Source: Syntrophomonas sp. (GTDB lineage Bacteria > Bacillota > Syntrophomonadia > Syntrophomonadales > Syntrophomonadaceae). From it: a stretch of DNA of 64,000 nucleotides. Positions 47,196 to 58,829 of the stretch are shown here, in pieces; position 1 is the stretch's first letter, and every line of letters begins with the position of its first letter. The translations under genes were made by a program, and so were the position numbers. The DNA is taken from assembly GCA_016841425.1 (NCBI GenBank), contig JAENZE010000009.1, positions 62,001 through 126,000 on the forward strand, given 5' to 3'. The notes below the pieces were generated by a model, which was not told where the DNA came from, did not search any database, and worked only from the letters and a program-made list of their open reading frames with translations.

Positions 47196-50100
47196 CTATA
47201 GCTCATATCCAGTAACAACCAGGTAATTCAGATATCTGTATACAGTAACTGCAGCTTCCGCCCGGCTGAGCGAATTATGGCCCCGGAAAGTTCCATCCTC
47301 GTATCCGTTCATCAGCTTCGCCTGGCAGGTGAATCTCAAGCCCGCCAAAGCCCAGGTGGGAATTTCGCTTTGATCAGCATAGCTTAATTCTCCTCCGGTT
47401 AAATCGCTCTGAGGCTGCAGCCTCTGCAGAATACTAGCTATCTCATTACGGGTAATCGGCTTATCCGGTCTGAAAGTGGCATCTGGATACCCGCTAATAA
47501 TGCCGCTGGCACAAGCAGTTTCTACCGCATCAGCAAACCAGTCACCCGGTCTTACATCGGTAAAACTCATGCCTGAGTCAGCTGTTGAGGATAGATTCAA
47601 AGCTTTTACCATCAACTGTACGAATTCTGCCCGACTGATATATCTGCCCGGTTCAAAGCCGGTGCCCGTACCCTTTATGATCCCCTGCCCGGCCAAAACC
47701 TCTATTGCCTCTCGTGCCCAATTTATGCCATTGTTAACATCGGGAAAACTGCTCCGGGTTGGAAAATCAACCACAGAGAAGGCAGTAAAATGATCGATCC
47801 TGAATATAATCAGCCCCGTTTCCAGGTCAATAATGGCTGGAATAGGTATCCACTCGTTTTTCCCAGTATCATACCAGGCCGGGCTCAACCTGTCGATGTT
47901 CATGTCTCCAGTAATAGCCATTTGTATACAAATTGTTAAAGGCTGGTTAAACTTGCTGCCATCCGGACCAAATTGGTAAACTGATGAACCTATTCTGAGT
48001 GCAAACTGCTGCGGAATGCTATCCTCCGCTACCTCATCTATAGTGATGACCACAGTCTCTGATACCGCATGGGCTGGTACCAGAACAGCTATTTCCTGCA
48101 GTTCATCTACTATCAGGGTTTCATCCTCATTAACATTTGTTTGTATGAAAACCTGATTGTTATCCAGCTCATTTTGCCGTGCGTTTAGCTGTTCAGCATT
48201 CATTTGTTTATCAGCGTTGATAACTGATGTTTTGCCCTGGAGCTGTTCCAATTGCTCAGAGTACAGGCTAATAATATCTTCTATCGATTGTGCCAAGGGG
48301 CTCATAACAGCTGCTGAAGGAACAATTATACTGCCCCTGAATAAATCATCCCCGGCAGGCCCATCTGAATATGGGTCATAACTATACCACCAGATCACCT
48401 CATCTCCCGGTTCTACTTCACTTTCAAATGCCGATATGGATAAGGGAACATCACTGATCTTACACATCCATCCATTCATATTCTCGTTGCTCTGGCCTTC
48501 AATGTCGGTTACCAATCCAGTGGTATATGACCAGCTCAAGCCGGTGGCATCCAGGGCTCCTACAGCAGTCAGGCCATAGGTATCATCCGGGTCCATGGTG
48601 ACCCGCTGCGGAGAAAACAGAAGTTCACCATCGCTTCCTACTACTGCAATGTATATTTTGATATTGTCATCACTGTCATGGCTGCCACCAGTACTGTCGG
48701 AATTTTCTACCGTAAGCAGTGCTGATCCAGATATACCTCCAAAACCTGCAGTGATACTAGTCATGCCTGCTGCCATACCGGTTGCCAGGCCCTCATTTAT
48801 GCTGGCTATATCGGTATCTTCTGCTGCCCAAGTTGCGCTGGAGGTTACTTCTTCTGTAGTGCCTGCTAAAGTATATGCCTCGGCTGTAAACTGCTGGGCT
48901 TCGCCCTTATCTATAACAGCACTGGAAGGACTCACCTCTAAACCCAGGACATTACCCCTGTTGATAGCTGCTCCCATCTGCAAATATGCATCCAGAACCC
49001 AGGTATTGGCCGCTATATTTTTATAAGTTCCAAACGTACCGTCACTATTTTCGGCCTCATGTAAAAGATAATCTATTGGGCTATTTCCTTCCCCGCTCAC
49101 CCAACTTTCAGGATTAATTCCACGAAGTCCAAGAGTATATACCACTTCCGATGTGTTTACTACCGGATCTTCCCAACTGGCATATTGAAAACTCCCATCA
49201 TCAATCTGACCGGCTGCCAGCCACTCCAATCCTCTTTCTATTGCATCTGACATTTCCTGTTCCTGGTCTCCGGCATATGGTTCAAGATATGTTAAGGCTC
49301 GTATTGCCTCAGCGGTAGTCATCAAGTCATCATATGCCCATGCTCCGCTTACAGAATCCTGTCCTCCCAGTATCAAACTTATCGCCTGATCGGTGTCAAT
49401 CTTATCTATATCTCCGGCTCTGCCCAAAATTTCTAAGGCTGGTATATCACTGAAGGCACTGCTGTCAAAGGAACCGTCCCCACTCGCTGCCTGTCGGTTC
49501 TGCAGTATCTGCAGCAGCTCAGCGGCCTGATCATCTTCTCCCATGCTCCGGGCAGCCAGATACTCTCCTGCTATCCTTTTAGCAGAGGACTGATTAGCTG
49601 TTCCTTCATCGGCTATGCTGCTGTCTGCCAGGCTCATTACCCGGGATGTAAAATCTTCTCTATCATATATCCAGCTGTCCAATTCGGCTCCAGCTGCATC
49701 CAGTATGTAAGCATCATAAGCGCTGAAATTTCCGTAAACCCCATCCACTGCCTGTCCTGCTTGATAAAATCCATAGTTGTTCCTTACCGCTTGTAAGGCC
49801 AGGTCATCTAAATCGCCAGGGCTGGAACTATCTTGTACGGTCACATCAGCAGAATTGCTTGCCTCTTCGTATTCGGCTGTAACTGCTGTCGTTCCTGCTG
49901 CTATACCGGTGGCCAACCCCATATCTATGCTGGCTAAATTAGGATCTTCTACGGTCCAGATGGCATTAGATGTTACATCTTCGGTGGTACCTGCAAAAGT
50001 ATATGCCTCGGCTGTAAACTGCTGGGCTTCGCCCTTATCTATAACAGCACTGGAAGGACTCACCTCTAAACCCAGGACATTACCCCTGTTGATAGCTGCT

Positions 50101-51074
50101 CCCATCTGCAAATATGCATCCAGAACCCAGGTATTGGCCGCTATATTTTTATAAGTTCCAAACGTACCGTCACTATTTTCGGCCTCATGTAAAAGATAAT
50201 CTATTGGGCTATTTCCTTCCCCGCTCACCCAACTTTCAGGATTAATTCCACGAAGTCCAAGAGTATATACCACTTCCGATGTGTTTACTACCGGATCTTC
50301 CCAACTGGCATATTGAAAACTCCCATCATCAATCTGACCGGCTGCCAGCCACTCCAATCCTCTTTCTATTGCATCTGACATTTCCTGTTCCTGGTCTCCG
50401 GCATATGGTTCAAGATATGTTAAGGCTCGTATTGCCTCAGCGGTAGTCATCAAGTCATCATATGCCCATGCTCCGCTTACAGAATCCTGTCCTCCCAGTA
50501 TCAAACTTATCGCCTGATCGGTGTCAATCTTATCTATATCTCCGGCTCTGCCCAAAATTTCTAAGGCTGGTATATCACTGAAGGCACTGCTGTCAAAGGA
50601 ACCGTCCCCACTCGCTGCCTGTCGGTTCTGCAGTATCTGCAGCAGCTCAGCGGCCTGATCATCTTCTCCCATGCTCCGGGCAGCCAGATACTCTCCTGCT
50701 ATCCTTTTAGCAGAGGACTGATTAGCTGTTCCTTCATCGGCTATGCTGCTGTCTGCCAGGCTCATTACCCGGGATGTAAAATCTTCTCTATCATATATCC
50801 AGCTGTCCAATTCGGCTCCAGCTGCATCCAGTATGTAAGCATCATAAGCGCTGAAATTTCCGTAAACCCCATCCACTGCCTGTCCTTCTTGATAAAATCC
50901 ATAGTTGTTCCTTACTGCCTGTAAGGCCAGGTCATCAATATCGCCAGCATCATCGGCCTGGACAAAAGCCGGGTTAATAAAAGGCAGCAATAAACTCACG
51001 ATAAAAACAATAGTCGCCAACCGATTAAATAATGATTGTTTCTTTCCCCTAAACAACCTAATCCCTCCATTCAA
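47196..51074 (-). CDS. Large SLH-anchored protein: two barrel plus Ig-like units and a DUF4430 domain
   Basis: A 1292-residue exported protein. Signal peptide 1-40; then two nearly identical 376-residue units (from about 48 and 424), each an alpha/alpha-barrel region of prenyltransferase-like repeats followed by a BIG2-type Ig domain (VLGLEVSPSSAVIDKGEAQQ). A DUF4430 domain follows (about 810-905; MNGWMCKISDVPLSI, GDEVIWWYSYDPYSDGP), then a helical linker, a beta domain ending FRIDHFTAFSVVDF, and three SLH repeats (about 1105-1290; GYPDATFRPDKPITRNE). Barrel plus DUF4430 matches the layout of intrinsic factor. It is first gene after a cobalamin riboswitch, so it is very likely a surface corrinoid-capture protein. 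Confidence 0.82.
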   Translation of the reverse strand: MNGGIRLFRGKKQSLFNRLATIVFIVSLLLPFINPAFVQADDAGDIDDLALQAVRNNYGFYQEGQAVDGVYGNFSAYDAYILDAAGAELDSWIYDREDFTSRVMSLADSSIADEGTANQSSAKRIAGEYLAARSMGEDDQAAELLQILQNRQAASGDGSFDSSAFSDIPALEILGRAGDIDKIDTDQAISLILGGQDSVSGAWAYDDLMTTAEAIRALTYLEPYAGDQEQEMSDAIERGLEWLAAGQIDDGSFQYASWEDPVVNTSEVVYTLGLRGINPESWVSGEGNSPIDYLLHEAENSDGTFGTYKNIAANTWVLDAYLQMGAAINRGNVLGLEVSPSSAVIDKGEAQQFTAEAYTFAGTTEDVTSNAIWTVEDPNLASIDMGLATGIAAGTTAVTAEYEEASNSADVTVQDSSSPGDLDDLALQAVRNNYGFYQAGQAVDGVYGNFSAYDAYILDAAGAELDSWIYDREDFTSRVMSLADSSIADEGTANQSSAKRIAGEYLAARSMGEDDQAAELLQILQNRQAASGDGSFDSSAFSDIPALEILGRAGDIDKIDTDQAISLILGGQDSVSGAWAYDDLMTTAEAIRALTYLEPYAGDQEQEMSDAIERGLEWLAAGQIDDGSFQYASWEDPVVNTSEVVYTLGLRGINPESWVSGEGNSPIDYLLHEAENSDGTFGTYKNIAANTWVLDAYLQMGAAINRGNVLGLEVSPSSAVIDKGEAQQFTAEAYTLAGTTEEVTSSATWAAEDTDIASINEGLATGMAAGMTSITAGFGGISGSALLTVENSDSTGGSHDSDDNIKIYIAVVGSDGELLFSPQRVTMDPDDTYGLTAVGALDATGLSWSYTTGLVTDIEGQSNENMNGWMCKISDVPLSISAFESEVEPGDEVIWWYSYDPYSDGPAGDDLFRGSIIVPSAAVMSPLAQSIEDIISLYSEQLEQLQGKTSVINADKQMNAEQLNARQNELDNNQVFIQTNVNEDETLIVDELQEIAVLVPAHAVSETVVITIDEVAEDSIPQQFALRIGSSVYQFGPDGSKFNQPLTICIQMAITGDMNIDRLSPAWYDTGKNEWIPIPAIIDLETGLIIFRIDHFTAFSVVDFPTRSSFPDVNNGINWAREAIEVLAGQGIIKGTGTGFEPGRYISRAEFVQLMVKALNLSSTADSGMSFTDVRPGDWFADAVETACASGIISGYPDATFRPDKPITRNEIASILQRLQPQSDLTGGELSYADQSEIPTWALAGLRFTCQAKLMNGYEDGTFRGHNSLSRAEAAVTVYRYLNYLVVTGYEL
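48868..49758 (-). repeat. Copy 2 of an 891-bp exact direct repeat
   Basis: I find no difference from the segment at 49996-50886 when reading them side by side. The offset is 1128 bases (376 codons), so the frame is kept. It covers the second barrel unit of the large SLH protein. Confidence 0.9.
49996..50886 (-). repeat. Copy 1 of the 891-bp exact direct repeat
   Basis: Partner of 48868-49758. The full duplicated unit is longer (1128 bases), but the flanks, including the Ig-like part, have begun to differ. Confidence 0.9.
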
Positions 51075-51496: not shown

Positions 51497-52702
51497 TCAT
51501 GATGATAGTAAAATATTATCATAAGGAATTACAGTAAGATCGTCTGGCAAAATGGTTATTTTTTCAACTCCTGATTTGGTCACTAACCAGGTGTTTTCTA
51601 TCCCTGCAATCCCCATCCCAGGGATAACAAATTTGGGTTCCAGTGCTATAACCATACCTGCTTCTAATTCAACATTGAAACCTTTAGCAATTACTGGTCT
51701 TTCATCCAGTTCCAGTCCTACTCCATGTCCAACAAACTTAACTCTCTCCGAGCCATAACCCATGAAATTTTGGCTCAGCCCTGCTCTATCAGCAATACCA
51801 ATAGCTCGCTCATACAGGTCACTGGCTACTACCCCTGGTTTAACCTGATCTATAAGCGTTTCCTGGATTTCCAACGCAACTTGGAAAGCATACTTTAACC
51901 TGTGAGGCAAGACCCCTACTACGTATAAGCGGGTTTGATCAATGTTATATCCATCGAATACCCCCACATAATCCAGGTAAACGGGATCATTAATTTGTAT
52001 TCTTCTCTCACCCGGTCCCTGGGGGAAGAATGCTCCCATGCCCATGCCAGCTGTGACTCCGTCGTTAAAACCCGAAATACAACCGTTGGGACCTGACAGA
52101 AAGTGTCCATAAAAAAATTCCTGGTTGAAACCACGCATACGTATGCAGCCCTGGTGTCCATGATCTCTTAAGGCTATTTCGACCCTGGCAGCAATAGCAA
52201 GTTCTGACAACCCCTGCTTTATTAGATCAGGAACATACGAGAAAGCATCGGCCATGCTTTTCCCTGCTTTTTTCATTATTGCTATTTCAAATGGACTCTT
52301 GGTAGCCCTCAAATCTGCAATCCAGTTGCTGGCATCAAGCAATTCGGTTTTAGGAAAGGTTTTTTTCACGCTTAGAAAAGCAGAGACAGGGAGTACATCG
52401 TATTCCAGACCTAATCGCTCTGGCAGCTGCTGACCCAGCTCACCCAGCTTTTCAGGAATATACTTGTAGTTGTTAATCGAAATGATATTCCACGGACATT
52501 CATTAGCTGCCCGGGATATGCTCTTACGACAGAATAACACCGGTTCACCACTGACCGGTATATAAAGCCGGGCGTTCTGCATGGTGCCACTGAAATAATA
52601 CAGGTCAACATTCTGTAGAATTAGTACGGCATCACATTCATCAGCCTTCATCATGTCCTGAAGACCCTTAATGCGCCGGTGCAGTTCCTCTTTGGGTGTC
52701 AT
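51497..52702 (-). CDS. M24 family metallopeptidase (Xaa-Pro aminopeptidase/creatinase type)
   Basis: A 401-residue protein with the creatinase N-terminal domain (about 1-130) and the pita-bread M24 domain. Candidate metal ligands are visible: Asp in YLDYVGVFDGYNIDQTR, His in FVGHGVGLELDE, Glu in VIALEPKF and Glu in GIAGIENTW. Members cleave Xaa-Pro bonds or act on non-peptide substrates such as creatine. It ends the mutase-linked gene run. ATG with GGAAGGAGAAAGGGG upstream. Substrate unknown. Confidence 0.88.
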   Translation of the reverse strand: MTPKEELHRRIKGLQDMMKADECDAVLILQNVDLYYFSGTMQNARLYIPVSGEPVLFCRKSISRAANECPWNIISINNYKYIPEKLGELGQQLPERLGLEYDVLPVSAFLSVKKTFPKTELLDASNWIADLRATKSPFEIAIMKKAGKSMADAFSYVPDLIKQGLSELAIAARVEIALRDHGHQGCIRMRGFNQEFFYGHFLSGPNGCISGFNDGVTAGMGMGAFFPQGPGERRIQINDPVYLDYVGVFDGYNIDQTRLYVVGVLPHRLKYAFQVALEIQETLIDQVKPGVVASDLYERAIGIADRAGLSQNFMGYGSERVKFVGHGVGLELDERPVIAKGFNVELEAGMVIALEPKFVIPGMGIAGIENTWLVTKSGVEKITILPDDLTVIPYDNILLSS

Positions 52703-52794: not shown

Positions 52795-52989
52795 TTAATC
52801 TACGGTTTTGACAATCACCTGTATACTCCTGCAGCATTCATCATTTTTAACTATAAAGTGATCGGGTCTTTCCATTAACAAATAATCCCCGCTAGACTCT
52901 ACAATAATATCTTCTTTTGTTAGGTTACCGTCCTTCGGTATAAACAGAGGACGCCCCAATGGAATAATAGCTTCTTTTATAATAGCCAT
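52795..52989 (-). CDS. Small hypothetical protein of the mutase gene run
   Basis: A 64-residue protein starting at ATG 52989 with GGGAGGG upstream; a longer frame to 53013 begins with that ribosome site. It reads AIIPLGRPLFIPKDGNLTKE, then a tail with NDECCRSIQVIVKTVD. No family recognised. It lies between the MtnA-like and M24 genes on the same strand, so a shared pathway role is likely. Confidence 0.55.
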   Translation of the reverse strand: MAIIKEAIIPLGRPLFIPKDGNLTKEDIIVESSGDYLLMERPDHFIVKNDECCRSIQVIVKTVD

Positions 52990-53061
52990 CTGTTCCCTCC
53001 CTCTTATACTCATATCTGCTTACTTATTCCAGTTATCCAGTCATTATATTCCGCTTCGCTT

Positions 53062-54090
53062 CTAAGCCCTTGAAACCCAATATTCATGGATAAAAGCAGG
53101 TATAAACATACCTCTATCAGTAATTATAGCCGTAAGCAACGCGGGTGGAGTAAGATCGAAAGCAGGGTAGAATCCCTGTACTTTTTCCCCGGTAATTTTA
53201 ATACCAGCGCAGTACAGAACTTCGTTTGGATCACGAATTTCGATCGGTATCTCAGACGCATTATTGCATCCTCTATCTGGACCTCCGTATCCAAGGATAT
53301 AAACAGGTATTTCATGATATTGTGCAGACAATGCCAGCTGGAAAGTTCCTACTTTATTGGCGACAGTACCATCTTGAGCTATCCTATCTGCTGCTGTAAA
53401 TACTTTACTGACCATACCCCGAGACATGCAATATGCAGCCATATTGTCGCTAATAAGGGTTACTGGTATTCCCAGCTCTGATACCGACCAGGCAGTTAAC
53501 CTGGCTCCCTGTAAATAAGGCCTGGTTTCAGATGCAATCACTTGTATCCTTTTCTGATTGGCTGCTGCCATATAGAGCATGTGCAGCAGAGCCGGCCCGG
53601 GAAAACAGTGAGTCAGTATAGTATCCCCATCATCCAGTACCTGCTCCGCCCACCTTCCAGTTAATTGTGATCTTTCATTCTGTTTTTGAATTGCCTTGTT
53701 TATACCCTTCAAAATCTGGGCAGACCAGCTCTCCCTATCGTTCAACCCGGTTAAAATTTTATCCAGCAAGGCTTTGAGGTGATGTCCGGTAGGACGAGTA
53801 TTTATCAACCGCTGGTAAGGTGCCTGGAAATATTCCCTGGCATTTCGCATTGATCCGCAATTGTTTTGTTCCAATGCTCTGGCTGCTAAATACAAACCAT
53901 ATCCTGCTGTTATGGCTATATCTCCTGCCCCCTGTACAGCCATATCCTCAATCGCCTGTGCTGCCTGTTCATAATCCGAACACATCAATTCATTTATCTG
54001 GCTCGGAAAAAGCCGCCGATCTATAATTATAAGTTTTTCTTCCCGCAGAAAAACTGTACTTCTTATATCCATTAACAATGGTTGTTTCAA
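53062..54090 (-). CDS. MtnA-like protein (eIF2B-fold sugar-phosphate isomerase family)
   Basis: A protein of about 342 residues similar to methylthioribose-1-phosphate isomerase. Family marks: VQGAGDIAITAGYGLYLAAR, RPTGHHL, the catalytic Cys in ILTHCFPGP, and the catalytic Asp in FTAADRIAQDGTVANKVGTF. Differences such as THCFPGP in place of the usual TxCNxG suggest a different substrate. The start is uncertain: TTG 54090 follows AGGAGG by 12 bases; ATG 54069 and an open frame to 54240 are alternatives. It lies among corrinoid and mutase genes, not with methionine salvage genes. Confidence 0.75.
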   Translation of the reverse strand: MKQPLLMDIRSTVFLREEKLIIIDRRLFPSQINELMCSDYEQAAQAIEDMAVQGAGDIAITAGYGLYLAARALEQNNCGSMRNAREYFQAPYQRLINTRPTGHHLKALLDKILTGLNDRESWSAQILKGINKAIQKQNERSQLTGRWAEQVLDDGDTILTHCFPGPALLHMLYMAAANQKRIQVIASETRPYLQGARLTAWSVSELGIPVTLISDNMAAYCMSRGMVSKVFTAADRIAQDGTVANKVGTFQLALSAQYHEIPVYILGYGGPDRGCNNASEIPIEIRDPNEVLYCAGIKITGEKVQGFYPAFDLTPPALLTAIITDRGMFIPAFIHEYWVSRA

Positions 54091-54128
54091 AGACCTGTTT
54101 AGCCTCCTCATGAGTGGTAATTCAAAGA

Positions 54129-54668
54129 CTATTCTTTTTTGGCCATATTTCTGCCAAAGGGTTGAACAAAGCCTTCCCGATCGCCCTGGTAGATAAATTC
54201 TACAGCCATGGCTGCTGCTTCCACTACCATATTCATACAATTCCGAAAACGGTTTTTATCAAACCATTCCGGATAATCCTTATTCAGGGTTTCACAGTCC
54301 GTAGCTCCATAGGTTTCGGCAAACTTATGCGGAATCTGGTTGATGAATCGATAGCGGCCAGGATTACCATACAATCCATCAATAATTTCATCCATAGTAC
54401 CCTCGGTGGGGTTTCTGCGCCCATGGACTGCCCCCACTCCCATAATAGCTGCAATCAGAGCCCCACAGGTTCCCCCATACAGACCCATGCCGCCTCCAAA
54501 CGGGGTAGCCAGGGCAACCGTTTCGGGCGCAAAGTCTACTAGCCCCACTTCTACCAGAGCTAGATAAACTGACTCTGCACAGTTGGGTCCGCTCTTGAAT
54601 TTGGCCTTGGCCGCTTGGCGAACCCGTTCCTTCATCTCCTCTTCCGGTACTGTTTTAAGTAAATCCAT
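54129..54668 (-). CDS. C_GCAxxG_C_C family protein (mutase operon copy)
   Basis: A 179-residue paralog of the protein encoded at 36887-37423, with PNCAESVYLALVEVG, ATPFGGGMGLYGGTCGALIA, ATDCETLNKDYPEWF and NCMNMVVEAAA. The spaced cysteines suggest a redox or metal centre. It lies between the B12-domain paralog and the MtnA-like gene. GGAGGAG precedes the ATG. Reaction unknown. Confidence 0.82.
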   Translation of the reverse strand: MDLLKTVPEEEMKERVRQAAKAKFKSGPNCAESVYLALVEVGLVDFAPETVALATPFGGGMGLYGGTCGALIAAIMGVGAVHGRRNPTEGTMDEIIDGLYGNPGRYRFINQIPHKFAETYGATDCETLNKDYPEWFDKNRFRNCMNMVVEAAAMAVEFIYQGDREGFVQPFGRNMAKKE

Positions 54669-54707: not shown

Positions 54708-55097
54708 TTATAGTTGATTATTAACTGTGTGGTTTATCCATTCTATAATGGATTCTGTACTTGCTGAAGGTGAAAATACCTGGGCTAAAGCACCTGCTTC
54801 TTTAAGGCTTTCTTGATCCTTTATAGGAATCAACCCTTCCGCAAACACGATAGTATTCCCGCAGCCTCTTTCTTCCAGAGCCTGCTTAAGCTCAGGGAAG
54901 ACTGCCATATGGGAACCCCTGTAGGCACTGATTCCAACCACATCAACTGCTTCTTTGTATATTTCTTCTACTATCTCATCCATACTCCTATATAGGCCTG
55001 TGTATATTACCTCCATACCTCCGACTTCCTTAAGTCCTCGGGCTAAAGCTCTTATTTTTTTATTGTGGGAATCTAATCCGACTATTCCCAATAACAC
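54708..55097 (-). CDS. Divergent B12-binding-domain protein, paralog of the mutase small subunit
   Basis: A 129-residue Rossmann-type B12-binding domain, alignable end to end with the mutase small subunit. The corrinoid contacts are altered: DxHxxG reads DSHNKK (His kept), the SxL position reads SAYRGSH, and the GGG before IIP reads AEG. Cobalamin binding may be weakened or changed. GTG 55097 has no clear ribosome site, and the alignment suggests the true start may be a few codons further upstream. It follows meaB by 41 bases. Confidence 0.8.
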   Translation of the reverse strand: MLLGIVGLDSHNKKIRALARGLKEVGGMEVIYTGLYRSMDEIVEEIYKEAVDVVGISAYRGSHMAVFPELKQALEERGCGNTIVFAEGLIPIKDQESLKEAGALAQVFSPSASTESIIEWINHTVNNQL

Positions 55098-55138
55098 CTT
55101 AATTCTGGCTATACAAATACACCTGCCTTCCCTGCTGA

Positions 55139-56098
55139 CTATTTGTTCAGGTATTTTTTAGATATTTCCTCGGCAAGTGAATATGGGTCGGTTTCTTTAC
55201 TCAACAGTTTTTCTACCATGAAGTCGAATTCCCCAGTTGCTGCTAGTTCACTCAATACTGGTTCCAAAATAGCAGCACGAAGGGCATCGTTCATTTCTGT
55301 TATAACCTTGCGAATTGCCCGTTCCTTTAGTTGATGACGTTCAACCAGATGCTTATAGTGTTCGTCGATCTTATCACACAGTTTTTCGACGCTCGCAGCA
55401 AAGGAATGCGGTTCCAGACTGCTCTCTAACATTAATATCGGAGGACGCCAACCATTGGGGAAGTTTCCCGAATTCAGCATATTAAGCGTCTCTTTGTAAA
55501 GCTTTCTGGCTCCATCTTTATCCGCCTTATTGATTACGAAAATATCCGCAATCTCCATTAGTCCAGCTTTAATAGCCTGTACTTCATCTCCCATGCCGGG
55601 GACCAGAACTACTATAACCGTATGAGCATGATTGATGATGTCAACTTCCTGCTGTCCTACGCCAACGGTTTCAACCAGGATTATGTCTTTTCCCATGACA
55701 TCAAGGACATGGATACCATCTCCTACCGCCTTGGAAAGACCTCCCATAGCCCCACGAGTAGCTAAACTCCGAACAAAAACTCCTTTATCCTCGGCATGCC
55801 TGAGCATGCGAATTCTATCACCCAAAAGCGCACCGCCCGTAAAAGGGCTGGTCGGATCTACAGCAAGAACTCCCACAGTTTTCTCTCTCTGACGCATAGT
55901 GAATATTAGTTGATCAGTTATGGTGCTTTTACCTGCTCCCGGTGAACCTGTTATACCTACCACATGAGCTTTACCGGTATAAGGAAAAATATGCTTTATC
56001 GCTTTAGTGGTTTCAGGTATATCGTCTTCAATATTTCTTATGAGGCGGGAGGCCGCACGAATGTCTCCCGCCATAGCTCTTTTGCCTAATTCTTCCAT
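55139..56098 (-). CDS. meaB: Methylmalonyl-CoA mutase-associated GTPase MeaB
   Basis: A 319-residue G3E-family GTPase that guards and loads adenosylcobalamin on the mutase. Walker A is GITGSPGAGKST (about 47-58), followed by DPTSPFTGGALLGDRIRM and the NKAD motif for guanine. Length is normal. It starts 4 bases after the mutase small-subunit stop. Confidence 0.96.
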   Translation of the reverse strand: MEELGKRAMAGDIRAASRLIRNIEDDIPETTKAIKHIFPYTGKAHVVGITGSPGAGKSTITDQLIFTMRQREKTVGVLAVDPTSPFTGGALLGDRIRMLRHAEDKGVFVRSLATRGAMGGLSKAVGDGIHVLDVMGKDIILVETVGVGQQEVDIINHAHTVIVVLVPGMGDEVQAIKAGLMEIADIFVINKADKDGARKLYKETLNMLNSGNFPNGWRPPILMLESSLEPHSFAASVEKLCDKIDEHYKHLVERHQLKERAIRKVITEMNDALRAAILEPVLSELAATGEFDFMVEKLLSKETDPYSLAEEISKKYLNK

Positions 56099-56102
56099 AT
56101 CG

Positions 56103-56507
56103 TCAATCCCTCGGTTTGATGTTTTCGTTTATCCAGTCTACTATGGAATCGAGGGTTGCACCGGGAGTAAAGAGAGCTTTTAGTCCTGCGTCATAAAGAG
56201 GCTGCATATCCTGTTCAGGTATTATTCCGCCGCCAACAACTGTAATGTCGTCAGCGCCCTGTTCCTGAAGCTGCTGGGCTACTGCCGGGAAAAGGTATCT
56301 ATGAGCCCCGGAAAGGCAGCTAAGTCCAACCATGTCCACGTCTTCCTGTATCGCTGCTCCTACTATCTGTTCAGGAGTTTGGTGACAACCGGTGTATATT
56401 ACCTCAAATCCGGCATCACGAAAAGTCCGGGCCAGAACCCTGGCTCCACGGTCATGTCCGTCCAAACCAGGTTTAGCAAGCAGTATACGTATCTTTCTAT
56501 CAGCCAT
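56103..56507 (-). CDS. Methylmalonyl-CoA mutase, B12-binding small subunit
   Basis: A 134-residue cobalamin-binding chain with the intact base-off motif LDGHDRG, SCLSGAH and [11 protein letters not shown]. It pairs with the separate catalytic chain encoded 21 bases upstream; the split form is typical of archaea and some Clostridia. AGGAGG precedes the ATG. Confidence 0.96.
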
Positions 56508-56528: not shown

Positions 56529-58208
56529 CTAGTACATGCCAGGGTCACGGTATTCGCCGTAGACTTCCCGATATACATCGCAGATTTCCTGGACGCTGCA
56601 GTAACTCTTAACTGCCTCGATACAATAAGGCATGACATTTTCACCTTTCTTGCAGGCGGTTCTAATATCATCGAGACATTCCCTTACTTTGCGGCTGTCA
56701 CGTTTTCTTCTTACCGCATTCAAACGTTCAATTTGCTCCTTTTCAACGGAATCATCAATCTCAAGGAAAGGAATTTCCACATCCTCATCAGTGTTATACT
56801 TGTTGATCCCGATCATAATTTTTTCACCGGAATCTATCTGGCGCTGGTACTTATAGGCAGCATCCGAGATTTCCATTTGCGGGAATCCTTTCTCGATTGC
56901 TTTGACCATACCACCCATATCGTCAATCTTATGAATGTAATCCCAGGCCTTTTCTTCCATTTCGTTGGTCAGGGCTTCTACAAAATAGGATCCAGCCAGC
57001 GGGTCGATAGTATTAACCACTCCAGTTTCCTCAGCAATAATCTGCTGGGTTCTGAGAGCAATCTGTACCGCATGGTCGGAAGGCAGACAGAGTACCTCAT
57101 CCAGAGAATTGGTATGCAGGGACTGGGTACCTCCTAATATAGCTGCCAGAGCTTCGGTTGCAGTTCTGATAACATTATTGTATGGCTGCTGGGCAGTCAG
57201 TGAACATCCAGCAGTCTGAGTATGGAAACGCATCCACCAGGATCTCTCATCTGTGGAACCGTACCTTTCGCGCATGGCCTTGGCCCAGATTCTCCTGGCA
57301 GCACGGAGTTTAGCGATTTCTTCAAAGAAGTCTATATGAGAATTGAAGAAGAAAGATAAGCGGGGAGCAAACTCATCTACATGCAAACCTTTACGGGCAA
57401 TAACATCCTCAACATATTCCATTCCATCCCTCAGGGTAAAGGCTAACTCTTGTACTGCTGTGGCCCCAGCCTCTCTTATATGGTATCCGCTTATACTGAT
57501 GGTGTTCCAGCGAGGAACATACTTGGTTCCAAATTCTACCGTATCACTGATAAGTTTAACCGAGGGTTCCGGGGGACACATCAGCGTCTTCTGGGCAATA
57601 AATTCCTTCAGCATGTCATTCTGAATAGTTCCTCCGATTTTAGTGAGCGGTATGCCTTGAATCTCCGCAGCAGCACAGTACATGGCCCATAAAGCTGTAG
57701 CTGGCGGATTAATAGTCATGGAGGTAGTAATATTAGCTAACGGAATCCCTTTTATCAGAGTAAAAAAATCGTCAATCGTGTCTATGGCTACCCCGCATTT
57801 GCCGCATTCACCTCGGGCTTTAGGAGAGTCGGTGTCATAACCCATAAGCGTCGGAAAATCGAAAGCGGTACTCAAGCCAGTTTGGCCGGAGTTTAAAAGA
57901 TAATGCCAGCGCTGGTTGGTTTCCTCAGCGCTTCCCATACCAGCAAACATCCTAAATGTCCAATATTTCCCACGGTAACCGGTCACCTGGTTGCCTCGCA
58001 GATAAGGATATTGACCAGGATATCCAATATCTTTTTCAAAATCCATGTTTTTGATATCTTCGGGTCCATATAGCCGCTTTATTTCCAAGTCGGACACGGT
58101 AGTCCATTTTTCTTTTTGGTCAGCATGTTTGGCCACCGTCTTTTTAACTTCATCTTCCCATTTTTTACGCATAGTACTTGATTTATCCAATAATTCTTCA
58201 GTAAACAA
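56529..58208 (-). CDS. Methylmalonyl-CoA mutase, catalytic large subunit
   Basis: A 559-residue TIM-barrel chain that interconverts succinyl-CoA and (R)-methylmalonyl-CoA using adenosylcobalamin. Typical segments are YPYLRGNQVTGYRGKYWTFR, LNSGQTGLSTAFDFPTLMGY, TQTAGCSLTAQQPYNNVIRT and HTNSLDEVLCLPSD. The tyrosine and threonine/glutamine pattern of methylmalonyl-type (rather than isobutyryl- or ethylmalonyl-type) mutases seems kept, though I did not align it. The B12-binding domain is in the next gene. Confidence 0.94.
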   Translation of the reverse strand: MFTEELLDKSSTMRKKWEDEVKKTVAKHADQKEKWTTVSDLEIKRLYGPEDIKNMDFEKDIGYPGQYPYLRGNQVTGYRGKYWTFRMFAGMGSAEETNQRWHYLLNSGQTGLSTAFDFPTLMGYDTDSPKARGECGKCGVAIDTIDDFFTLIKGIPLANITTSMTINPPATALWAMYCAAAEIQGIPLTKIGGTIQNDMLKEFIAQKTLMCPPEPSVKLISDTVEFGTKYVPRWNTISISGYHIREAGATAVQELAFTLRDGMEYVEDVIARKGLHVDEFAPRLSFFFNSHIDFFEEIAKLRAARRIWAKAMRERYGSTDERSWWMRFHTQTAGCSLTAQQPYNNVIRTATEALAAILGGTQSLHTNSLDEVLCLPSDHAVQIALRTQQIIAEETGVVNTIDPLAGSYFVEALTNEMEEKAWDYIHKIDDMGGMVKAIEKGFPQMEISDAAYKYQRQIDSGEKIMIGINKYNTDEDVEIPFLEIDDSVEKEQIERLNAVRRKRDSRKVRECLDDIRTACKKGENVMPYCIEAVKSYCSVQEICDVYREVYGEYRDPGMY

Positions 58209-58268: not shown

Positions 58269-58829
58269 TCAGTACTCAATACCGGCTCTGTCCTTGATAC
58301 CGGCATTATAATGATGTTTTATCTCTCTTACTTCACTGACCATATCAGCCAGCTCTTGTATGCTTTGCGAAGCATATCTGCCTGTTAAAATAAGGTCCAG
58401 CTCCGGGGGCTTGTTTTTAATCATGTCTATTATTTCGTCTTCCGGAACCAGGCAGAAATCTGCAACTACATTGATTTCATCCAGAATGACCATGTCATAA
58501 TCACCACTCTGAATTACTTCTTTTGCTTTGGCAAATCCCTCTTCGGCCAACTCCATATCTACAGTTGCCGGATTATCACGCATAACAAAGCTATCCAGCC
58601 CATATTGGAAAAACGCCAATTCGGGTAAGTATTTCCTCACTGCTACAACTTCACCATATACGCGTCCCTTCATAAACTGAATCATACATACCCGAAGTCC
58701 CTGGCCAGTAGCCCGTAAAGCCTGGCCAAACGCAGATGTCGTCTTGCCTTTGCCATTGCCGGTAATTACCATCACCAGTCCTTTTTTGGGTGATTTTTTT
58801 GCTCCATTATCGACGGGCAAGTTTTTCAT
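58269..58829 (-). CDS. btuR: Cob(I)alamin/cobinamide adenosyltransferase, BtuR/CobO type
   Basis: A 186-residue ATP-binding enzyme that makes adenosylcobalamin, the mutase cofactor. The P-loop GNGKGKTT (24-31) is followed by SAFGQALRATGQGLRVCMIQ, and DYDMVILDEINVV forms the Walker B region. The C-terminal RASRSIQEL-type segment reads GRYASQSIQELADMVSEVRE. It is the first gene of the mutase run. A TATAAT at 58861-58866 on the minus strand may be its -10. Confidence 0.94.
   Translation of the reverse strand: MKNLPVDNGAKKSPKKGLVMVITGNGKGKTTSAFGQALRATGQGLRVCMIQFMKGRVYGEVVAVRKYLPELAFFQYGLDSFVMRDNPATVDMELAEEGFAKAKEVIQSGDYDMVILDEINVVADFCLVPEDEIIDMIKNKPPELDLILTGRYASQSIQELADMVSEVREIKHHYNAGIKDRAGIEY

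Follow-up and report, generated by a model that had tools for sequence, protein, structure and literature searches.

The minus-strand gene at 54708-55097 of the window, that is, of the whole 64,000-nucleotide stretch of DNA that was analyzed, encodes a conserved, selected and probably cobalamin-blind B12-domain protein of mutase operons. It is a real open reading frame for a paralog with the B12-binding fold. The protein matched TIGR00640 with 87.3 bits (cut-off 57.45, E 8.3e-25) and the Pfam B12-binding profile PF02310 with 52.2 bits (cut-off 32.1), and the PF02310 match together with the Rossmann B12 fold of a predicted model places it among the B12-binding domains. LDSHNKK was found in place of DxHxxG, ISAY in place of SxL and AEG in place of GGG, as the first-pass annotation had read them. 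Within DSHNKK the axial His is present and the closing Gly is absent, and the tail-pocket motifs SxL and GGG are replaced by SAY and AEG. The profile matches and the motifs support that annotation in describing a B12-domain paralog with altered corrinoid contacts. For such degenerate members, the profile label "mutase B12-binding domain" (NCBIfam, Pfam) is probably wrong on function.

Within a predicted isobutyryl-CoA mutase (ICM) operon (cobA, large subunit, small subunit, meaB, paralog) the gene comes fifth, and the host of the operon is a fatty-acid-degrading anaerobe. The features of the locus, in minus-strand order, were as follows.

58269..58829, minus strand: CobA-type corrinoid adenosyltransferase (PF02572, 205.6 bits; slightly below the TIGR00708 and NF004637 cut-offs)
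56529..58208, minus strand: mutase large subunit, predicted isobutyryl-CoA mutase (TIGR00641, 764.9 bits; closest PDB entry HcmA, 4r3u_A)
56103..56507, minus strand: canonical mutase small subunit with DGHDRG, SCL and GGG in its sequence (TIGR00640, 166.7 bits)
55139..56098, minus strand: MeaB G-protein chaperone (TIGR00750, 313.6 bits, cut-off 240.75)
55126..55132, minus strand: putative ribosome-binding site GGGAAGG, 7 nt before ATT 55118, from the sequence
54708..55118, minus strand: degenerate B12-domain paralog (first listed start GTG 55097; likely start ATT 55118)
54129..54668, minus strand: C_GCAxxG_C_C putative redox protein (PF09719, TIGR01909)
53062..54240, minus strand: MtnA/eIF2B-like isomerase (PF01008 and NF004326 above cut-off, TIGR00512 below cut-off)
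52795..53013, minus strand: conserved 72-aa protein, from its conservation in relatives
51497..52702, minus strand: M24-family peptidase/creatinase-like protein (PF00557, PF01321; same position in several relatives)

The nearest solved relative of the large subunit was 2-hydroxyisobutyryl-CoA mutase (HcmA, 4r3u_A). In HMMER alignments its specificity residues were Phe/Ala/Gln (in RMFAG and EFIAQK), compared to Ile/Asp/Gln in 2-hydroxyisobutyryl-CoA mutase and Tyr/Ala/Arg in human methylmalonyl-CoA mutase. We take these positions to include Tyr89 and Arg207 of methylmalonyl-CoA mutase, which presumably determine specificity, and Phe and Gln there to be the isobutyryl-CoA mutase pattern. The operon enzyme carries this Phe and Gln and is predicted to be an isobutyryl-CoA mutase. 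The genome encodes two mutase large subunits and three small-subunit-like stand-alone B12 domains, two of which are canonical, and the other large subunit has a canonical small subunit of its own. With two canonical domains for two large subunits, the paralog is left without a large subunit of its own, in agreement with the earlier proposal that it has no catalytic partner.

Several observations were made on the surroundings of the paralog. The MtnA/eIF2B-like isomerase gene was present in 20 of 24 ICM operon stretches; it was missing from G431 and G062, and contig ends cut G044 and G061. Its listed TTG start overlaps the preceding gene, and the true start is likely later. The isomerase might salvage 5'-deoxyadenosine released upon mutase inactivation; a stronger PF01008 match lies elsewhere in the genome (G000:C15). 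The 72-aa protein had no family match in Pfam or NCBIfam and was 51-91% identical where present in ICM operons. At 47196-51074, also on the minus strand, a 1292-aa S-layer/Big_2/DUF4430 protein contains a large internal duplication with a spacing of 1128 nt and 91% identity over the 300-nt reference copy. The promoter/terminator scan gave no excess over shuffles (15 versus a mean of 17.3, and 7 versus 7.4). A fixed tie of the paralog to the C_GCAxxG gene was rejected, since in the stretches read g4, G030, G031, G032 and G034 have the paralog without a C_GCAxxG gene beside meaB, and G053, G039 and G023 have the C_GCAxxG gene without the paralog.

Eighteen genomes from five families carried the paralog, always directly after meaB; 17 copies were full length and one (G061) was cut by a contig end. 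In the search of the order, 23 of 63 genomes had a match at E <=1e-5, canonical small subunits being counted too. Two of these (G024 and G025) had only the other type of small subunit, and when the neighborhoods were read, the remaining 21 all had an ICM-type operon. The paralog was present in 15 of the 21 (four genomes of g1, four of g4, five of g12, G036 and G061). It was absent from G023, G037, G039, G044, G053 and G062, where the clade profile found no second domain, the absence call in G044 being limited by a locus that ends about 0.8 kb past meaB. These six genomes indicate that the mutase does not generally need the paralog. In the same search, G020, a member of the same genus, had neither an ICM operon match nor the paralog. 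Three genomes outside the order also had the paralog. Two of them, G431 and G205, came from a phylum sample of 398 genomes, in which 25 newly fetched higher-scoring loci were read for motifs, and the third, G491, came from a further 113 genomes with 19 new loci, of which 11 were read. The class search drew on the 63 genomes already in the order search, and all searches were within one phylum. A contig search with the single paralog protein as query gave no match, and one with the paralog alignment gave 7 loci with close orthologs, in Syntrophomonas or Syntrophomonadaceae records.

In the phylogenetic tree, the 17 full-length paralogs formed one clade with a support of 100/99, although the bootstrap of this first tree had not settled; with the motif columns removed, the support was 100/96. 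A separate clade (100/99) comprised the small subunits of the 21 ICM operons included in the tree. An origin of the paralog by recent tandem duplication of the small-subunit gene was rejected on account of these separate clades, which show the paralog to be an old companion of the operon. The paralogs of G029 and G431 (loci L049 and L113) were very similar despite their different families, and this suggests that the ICM operon may have moved horizontally between the two lineages.

Within the clade, the cobalamin contacts are lost in a graded manner. The 44 canonical domains had His, Gly, Leu and Gly at the four contact positions, each in 44 of 44. Six intermediate members (G029, G030, G031, G032, G034 and G205) kept DxHDRG or DxHDKG together with GGG, and His had replaced the Leu of SxL in all six; this Leu64 was absent from 17 of 17 clade members. 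In the eleven degenerate members, which include that of the window, the closing Gly of DxHxxG was replaced by Lys (4), Arg (4) or Glu (3), so that position 19 was Gly in 44/44 canonical domains and Lys, Arg or Glu in 11/11 degenerate ones. The axial His position held Gln (4), Asn (4), Asp (2) or His (1, the window), the Leu of SxL was Tyr (8), His (2) or Ser (1), and the middle Gly of GGG was Glu in eight and Gly in three. The earlier remark that the His is kept holds for the window's genome and the six intermediate members; it does not hold for the genus relatives that carry the gene, 3/3 of which have Gln. Forty-five columns at least 95% conserved among the 44 canonical domains served as reference for contact loss. 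At 15 of these the canonical residue was found in 20% or less of the eleven degenerate members, although several of the 15 were mild swaps (Arg to Lys, Asp to Glu); nine of them (11, 15-19, 64, 65 and 116) map to the regions of the cobalamin loop, SxL and PG.

These findings show a loss of contact residues at the sequence level. Among the three options of the first-pass annotation, lost binding fits best, because the closing residue is charged in 11/17 and the axial His is gone in 10/17 full-length clade members. Holding of cobalamin in the His-on mode has most likely been lost in the paralog. The six intermediate members may well bind cobalamin, and the other two options, namely that the paralog is a sensor or carries another corrinoid, are possible. 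The fewest changes needed on the tree were three for the His with the motif columns in, and four for the His and three for the Gly with these columns out. Since support is weak at the forks on which the placement of G036, G491 and the intermediate groups depends, we propose only tentatively that His and Gly were lost repeatedly and that the His was then regained in the window lineage by one base change. Alternatively, the His may simply have been retained there, with more losses elsewhere.

The predicted structure is consistent with a kept B12-domain fold and is silent on ligand binding. The single AlphaFold2 model had a mean pLDDT of 88.4 and a pTM of 0.84, and the lowest 10-residue pLDDT block (67) was at residues 11-20, the former cobalamin loop. 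Its best PDB match was HcmB, with a Z of 21.9 and an rmsd of 1.4 over 131 residues; Z was 19.5 for 8dpb_D, the cobalamin domain bound to MeaB.

The pairwise dN/dS of the paralog was 0.062-0.162 in all 10 pairs from 10 genomes, compared to 0.007-0.088 in 10 pairs for the small subunit, with dS near saturation in several pairs. The paralog is therefore constrained by purifying selection, but less than the small subunit. None of the 17 full-length copies had an internal stop. Strain-specific decay, one of two outcomes that the first-pass annotation had foreseen as overturning its idea, was rejected: 18 genomes have the gene at the same place, and it is under constraint in the 10 pairs drawn from 10 of them. 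The other outcome, a normal functional mutase subunit, does not fit an ICM operon that already has its true small subunit.

The start of the gene probably is not GTG 55097. No ribosome-binding site was seen there by eye, the first beta strand is conserved upstream, and the codon itself is not conserved, being GTT in G021 and G018 (two of three genus relatives) in a four-member upstream alignment. The frame extends upstream to the ATT at 55118. The paralogs of G018 and G019 have an in-frame GTG behind a strong ribosome-binding site. In the window's genome and G021, there is one extra base at the start region, and ATT is the first in-frame candidate. Initiation at AUU, with a one-base shift common to G021, is thus possible from the sequence at 55097-55132.

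How the paralog might act is best considered against what is described for MeaB (PMC9974510). MeaB itself binds no cobalamin, the apo cobalamin domain alone raises its phosphate release 25-fold, and the contact consists mainly of one edge strand of the cobalamin domain and five salt bridges (PMC9974510). When these contacts were mapped from alignments and residue ranges rather than coordinates, with the Asp632 and Glu577 contacts outside the comparison, the residues that align to the strand pairing with switch I of MeaB were found to be kept in the degenerate paralogs. An acid was also kept at the Asp609 position in 10/11 of them. In contrast, the acid of the Asp634 position, which forms a MeaB salt bridge, was Asp in 44/44 canonical and 6/6 intermediate members, and was Asp in one and Glu in two of the 11 degenerate members. 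The MeaB face is therefore only partly kept.

With the strand and the Asp609 acid kept and the Asp634 acid mostly lost, a cofactor-free interaction role explains the data best, with both MeaB and the large subunit as candidate partners. We consider it about an even chance that the protein, an old, separately inherited paralog of the B12 subunit, interacts with other proteins of the mutase/MeaB system as a module without cofactor. It travels with the ICM/MeaB operon, and its degenerate branch has lost the closing Gly, the SxL Leu, mostly the lower-ligand His and partly GGG, which the true small subunit kept. It would touch MeaB or the large subunit, the most likely partners, in place of or beside the true small subunit, and the contact would tune cofactor loading or the MeaB GTPase. 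Several points weigh against this explanation: the window paralog still has the His, the intermediates keep the cobalamin loop and GGG, the MeaB face is only partly kept, and six of the 21 ICM-operon genomes of the order do without the gene. In the boldest form of this explanation, the paralog would be a natural cofactor-free mimic of the B12 domain that the metallochaperone MeaB meets as a decoy client or as a regulator of its GTPase, and the clade would still contain the steps between probably cobalamin-competent and probably cobalamin-blind members. The loss of the Asp634 acid counts against this form, which we find doubtful.

The Rossmann pocket could instead have been re-used for another ligand, such as a nucleotide, CoA or 5'-deoxyadenosine, of which the paralog would be the sensor or carrier. 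New conserved polar residues (Lys18 in 11/11, Glu92 in 8/11 and Asn17 in 8/11 degenerate members, Tyr41 in 17/17 of the clade) and the MtnA-like isomerase gene downstream are in line with this, but no ligand motif was recognized and the new residues vary by lineage (Lys, Arg or Glu at position 19; Gly at position 92 in 3/11), and we regard it as unlikely. It also seems quite unlikely that corrinoid is bound weakly or in another mode (base-on, His-off), so that damaged cobalamin could be parked on the paralog or off-loaded to it in passing between mutase, MeaB and CobA. The operon has CobA and MeaB, cobalamin loop and GGG persist in 6/17 members, and the window paralog has the His; against these stand the long charged residue at Gly19 in 11/11, the Glu in the GGG loop in 8/11 and the loss of Gly116 in 9/11 degenerate members, swaps that should reshape or fill the nucleotide-tail pocket.

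A slowly decaying copy without present function is improbable. The paralog does evolve much faster than the true small subunit (between the window's genome and G021, identity was 72% for the paralog and 99% for the large and small subunits), and these two genomes have no standard in-frame start codon near the ribosome-binding site. The MtnA-like and M24 neighbors, however, evolve at about the paralog's rate, and low dN/dS in 10/10 pairs, 17 full copies free of internal stops and the same place in five families all speak against decay. That the mutase could use the paralog as an ordinary second small subunit is hardly credible: the TIGR00640 score is above the cut-off, but a canonical small subunit already lies two genes upstream, the SxL Leu is gone in 17/17 clade members and the closing Gly in 11/17. 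The cofactor-free interaction role is preferred, and the paralog probably persists because it does something else, for instance assisting the loading machinery or regulating it. A cofactor-free partner of this kind would be a natural tool to split protein recognition by MeaB from cofactor transfer, and the clade offers a graded natural series of cobalamin-contact loss.

The Slip_0757-0760 cluster of Syntrophothermus lipocalidus, described as an isobutyryl-CoA mutase, resembles the window operon in having two mutase domain proteins, an adenosyltransferase and a MeaB-like protein in one cluster (PMC5017805). Unlike the window operon, it has no second B12 protein named in the passages of that paper that describe it (PMC5017805). 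Open-licence PMC titles and abstract openings gave no description of mutase operons with a second, degenerate B12 domain, but their partial coverage does not establish absence from print. The mutase B12 small subunits (HcmB, 4r3u_C; canonical, TIGR00640) are like the paralog in fold, size and operon context, HcmB being 37% identical to it in the structural alignment. The paralog differs from them in its changed DxHxxG, SxL, GGG and PG contacts, in its own clade and in being extra to the true small subunit. The MeMCM cobalamin domain bound to MeaB (8dpb) is alike in fold, in the aligned strand and in the Asp609-position acid, whereas in the paralog the Asp634-position acid is mostly lost, the cobalamin loop is changed, and the domain is a natural stand-alone protein. 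Bacterial methylmalonyl-CoA mutase likewise has an inactive chain, MutA, a mutase paralog that persists although it does not catalyze and presumably serves as a structural partner, but MutA is a whole mutase-type chain and not a lone B12 domain. The pairing of an active with an inactive subunit is common in the bacterial enzymes (PMC9974510).
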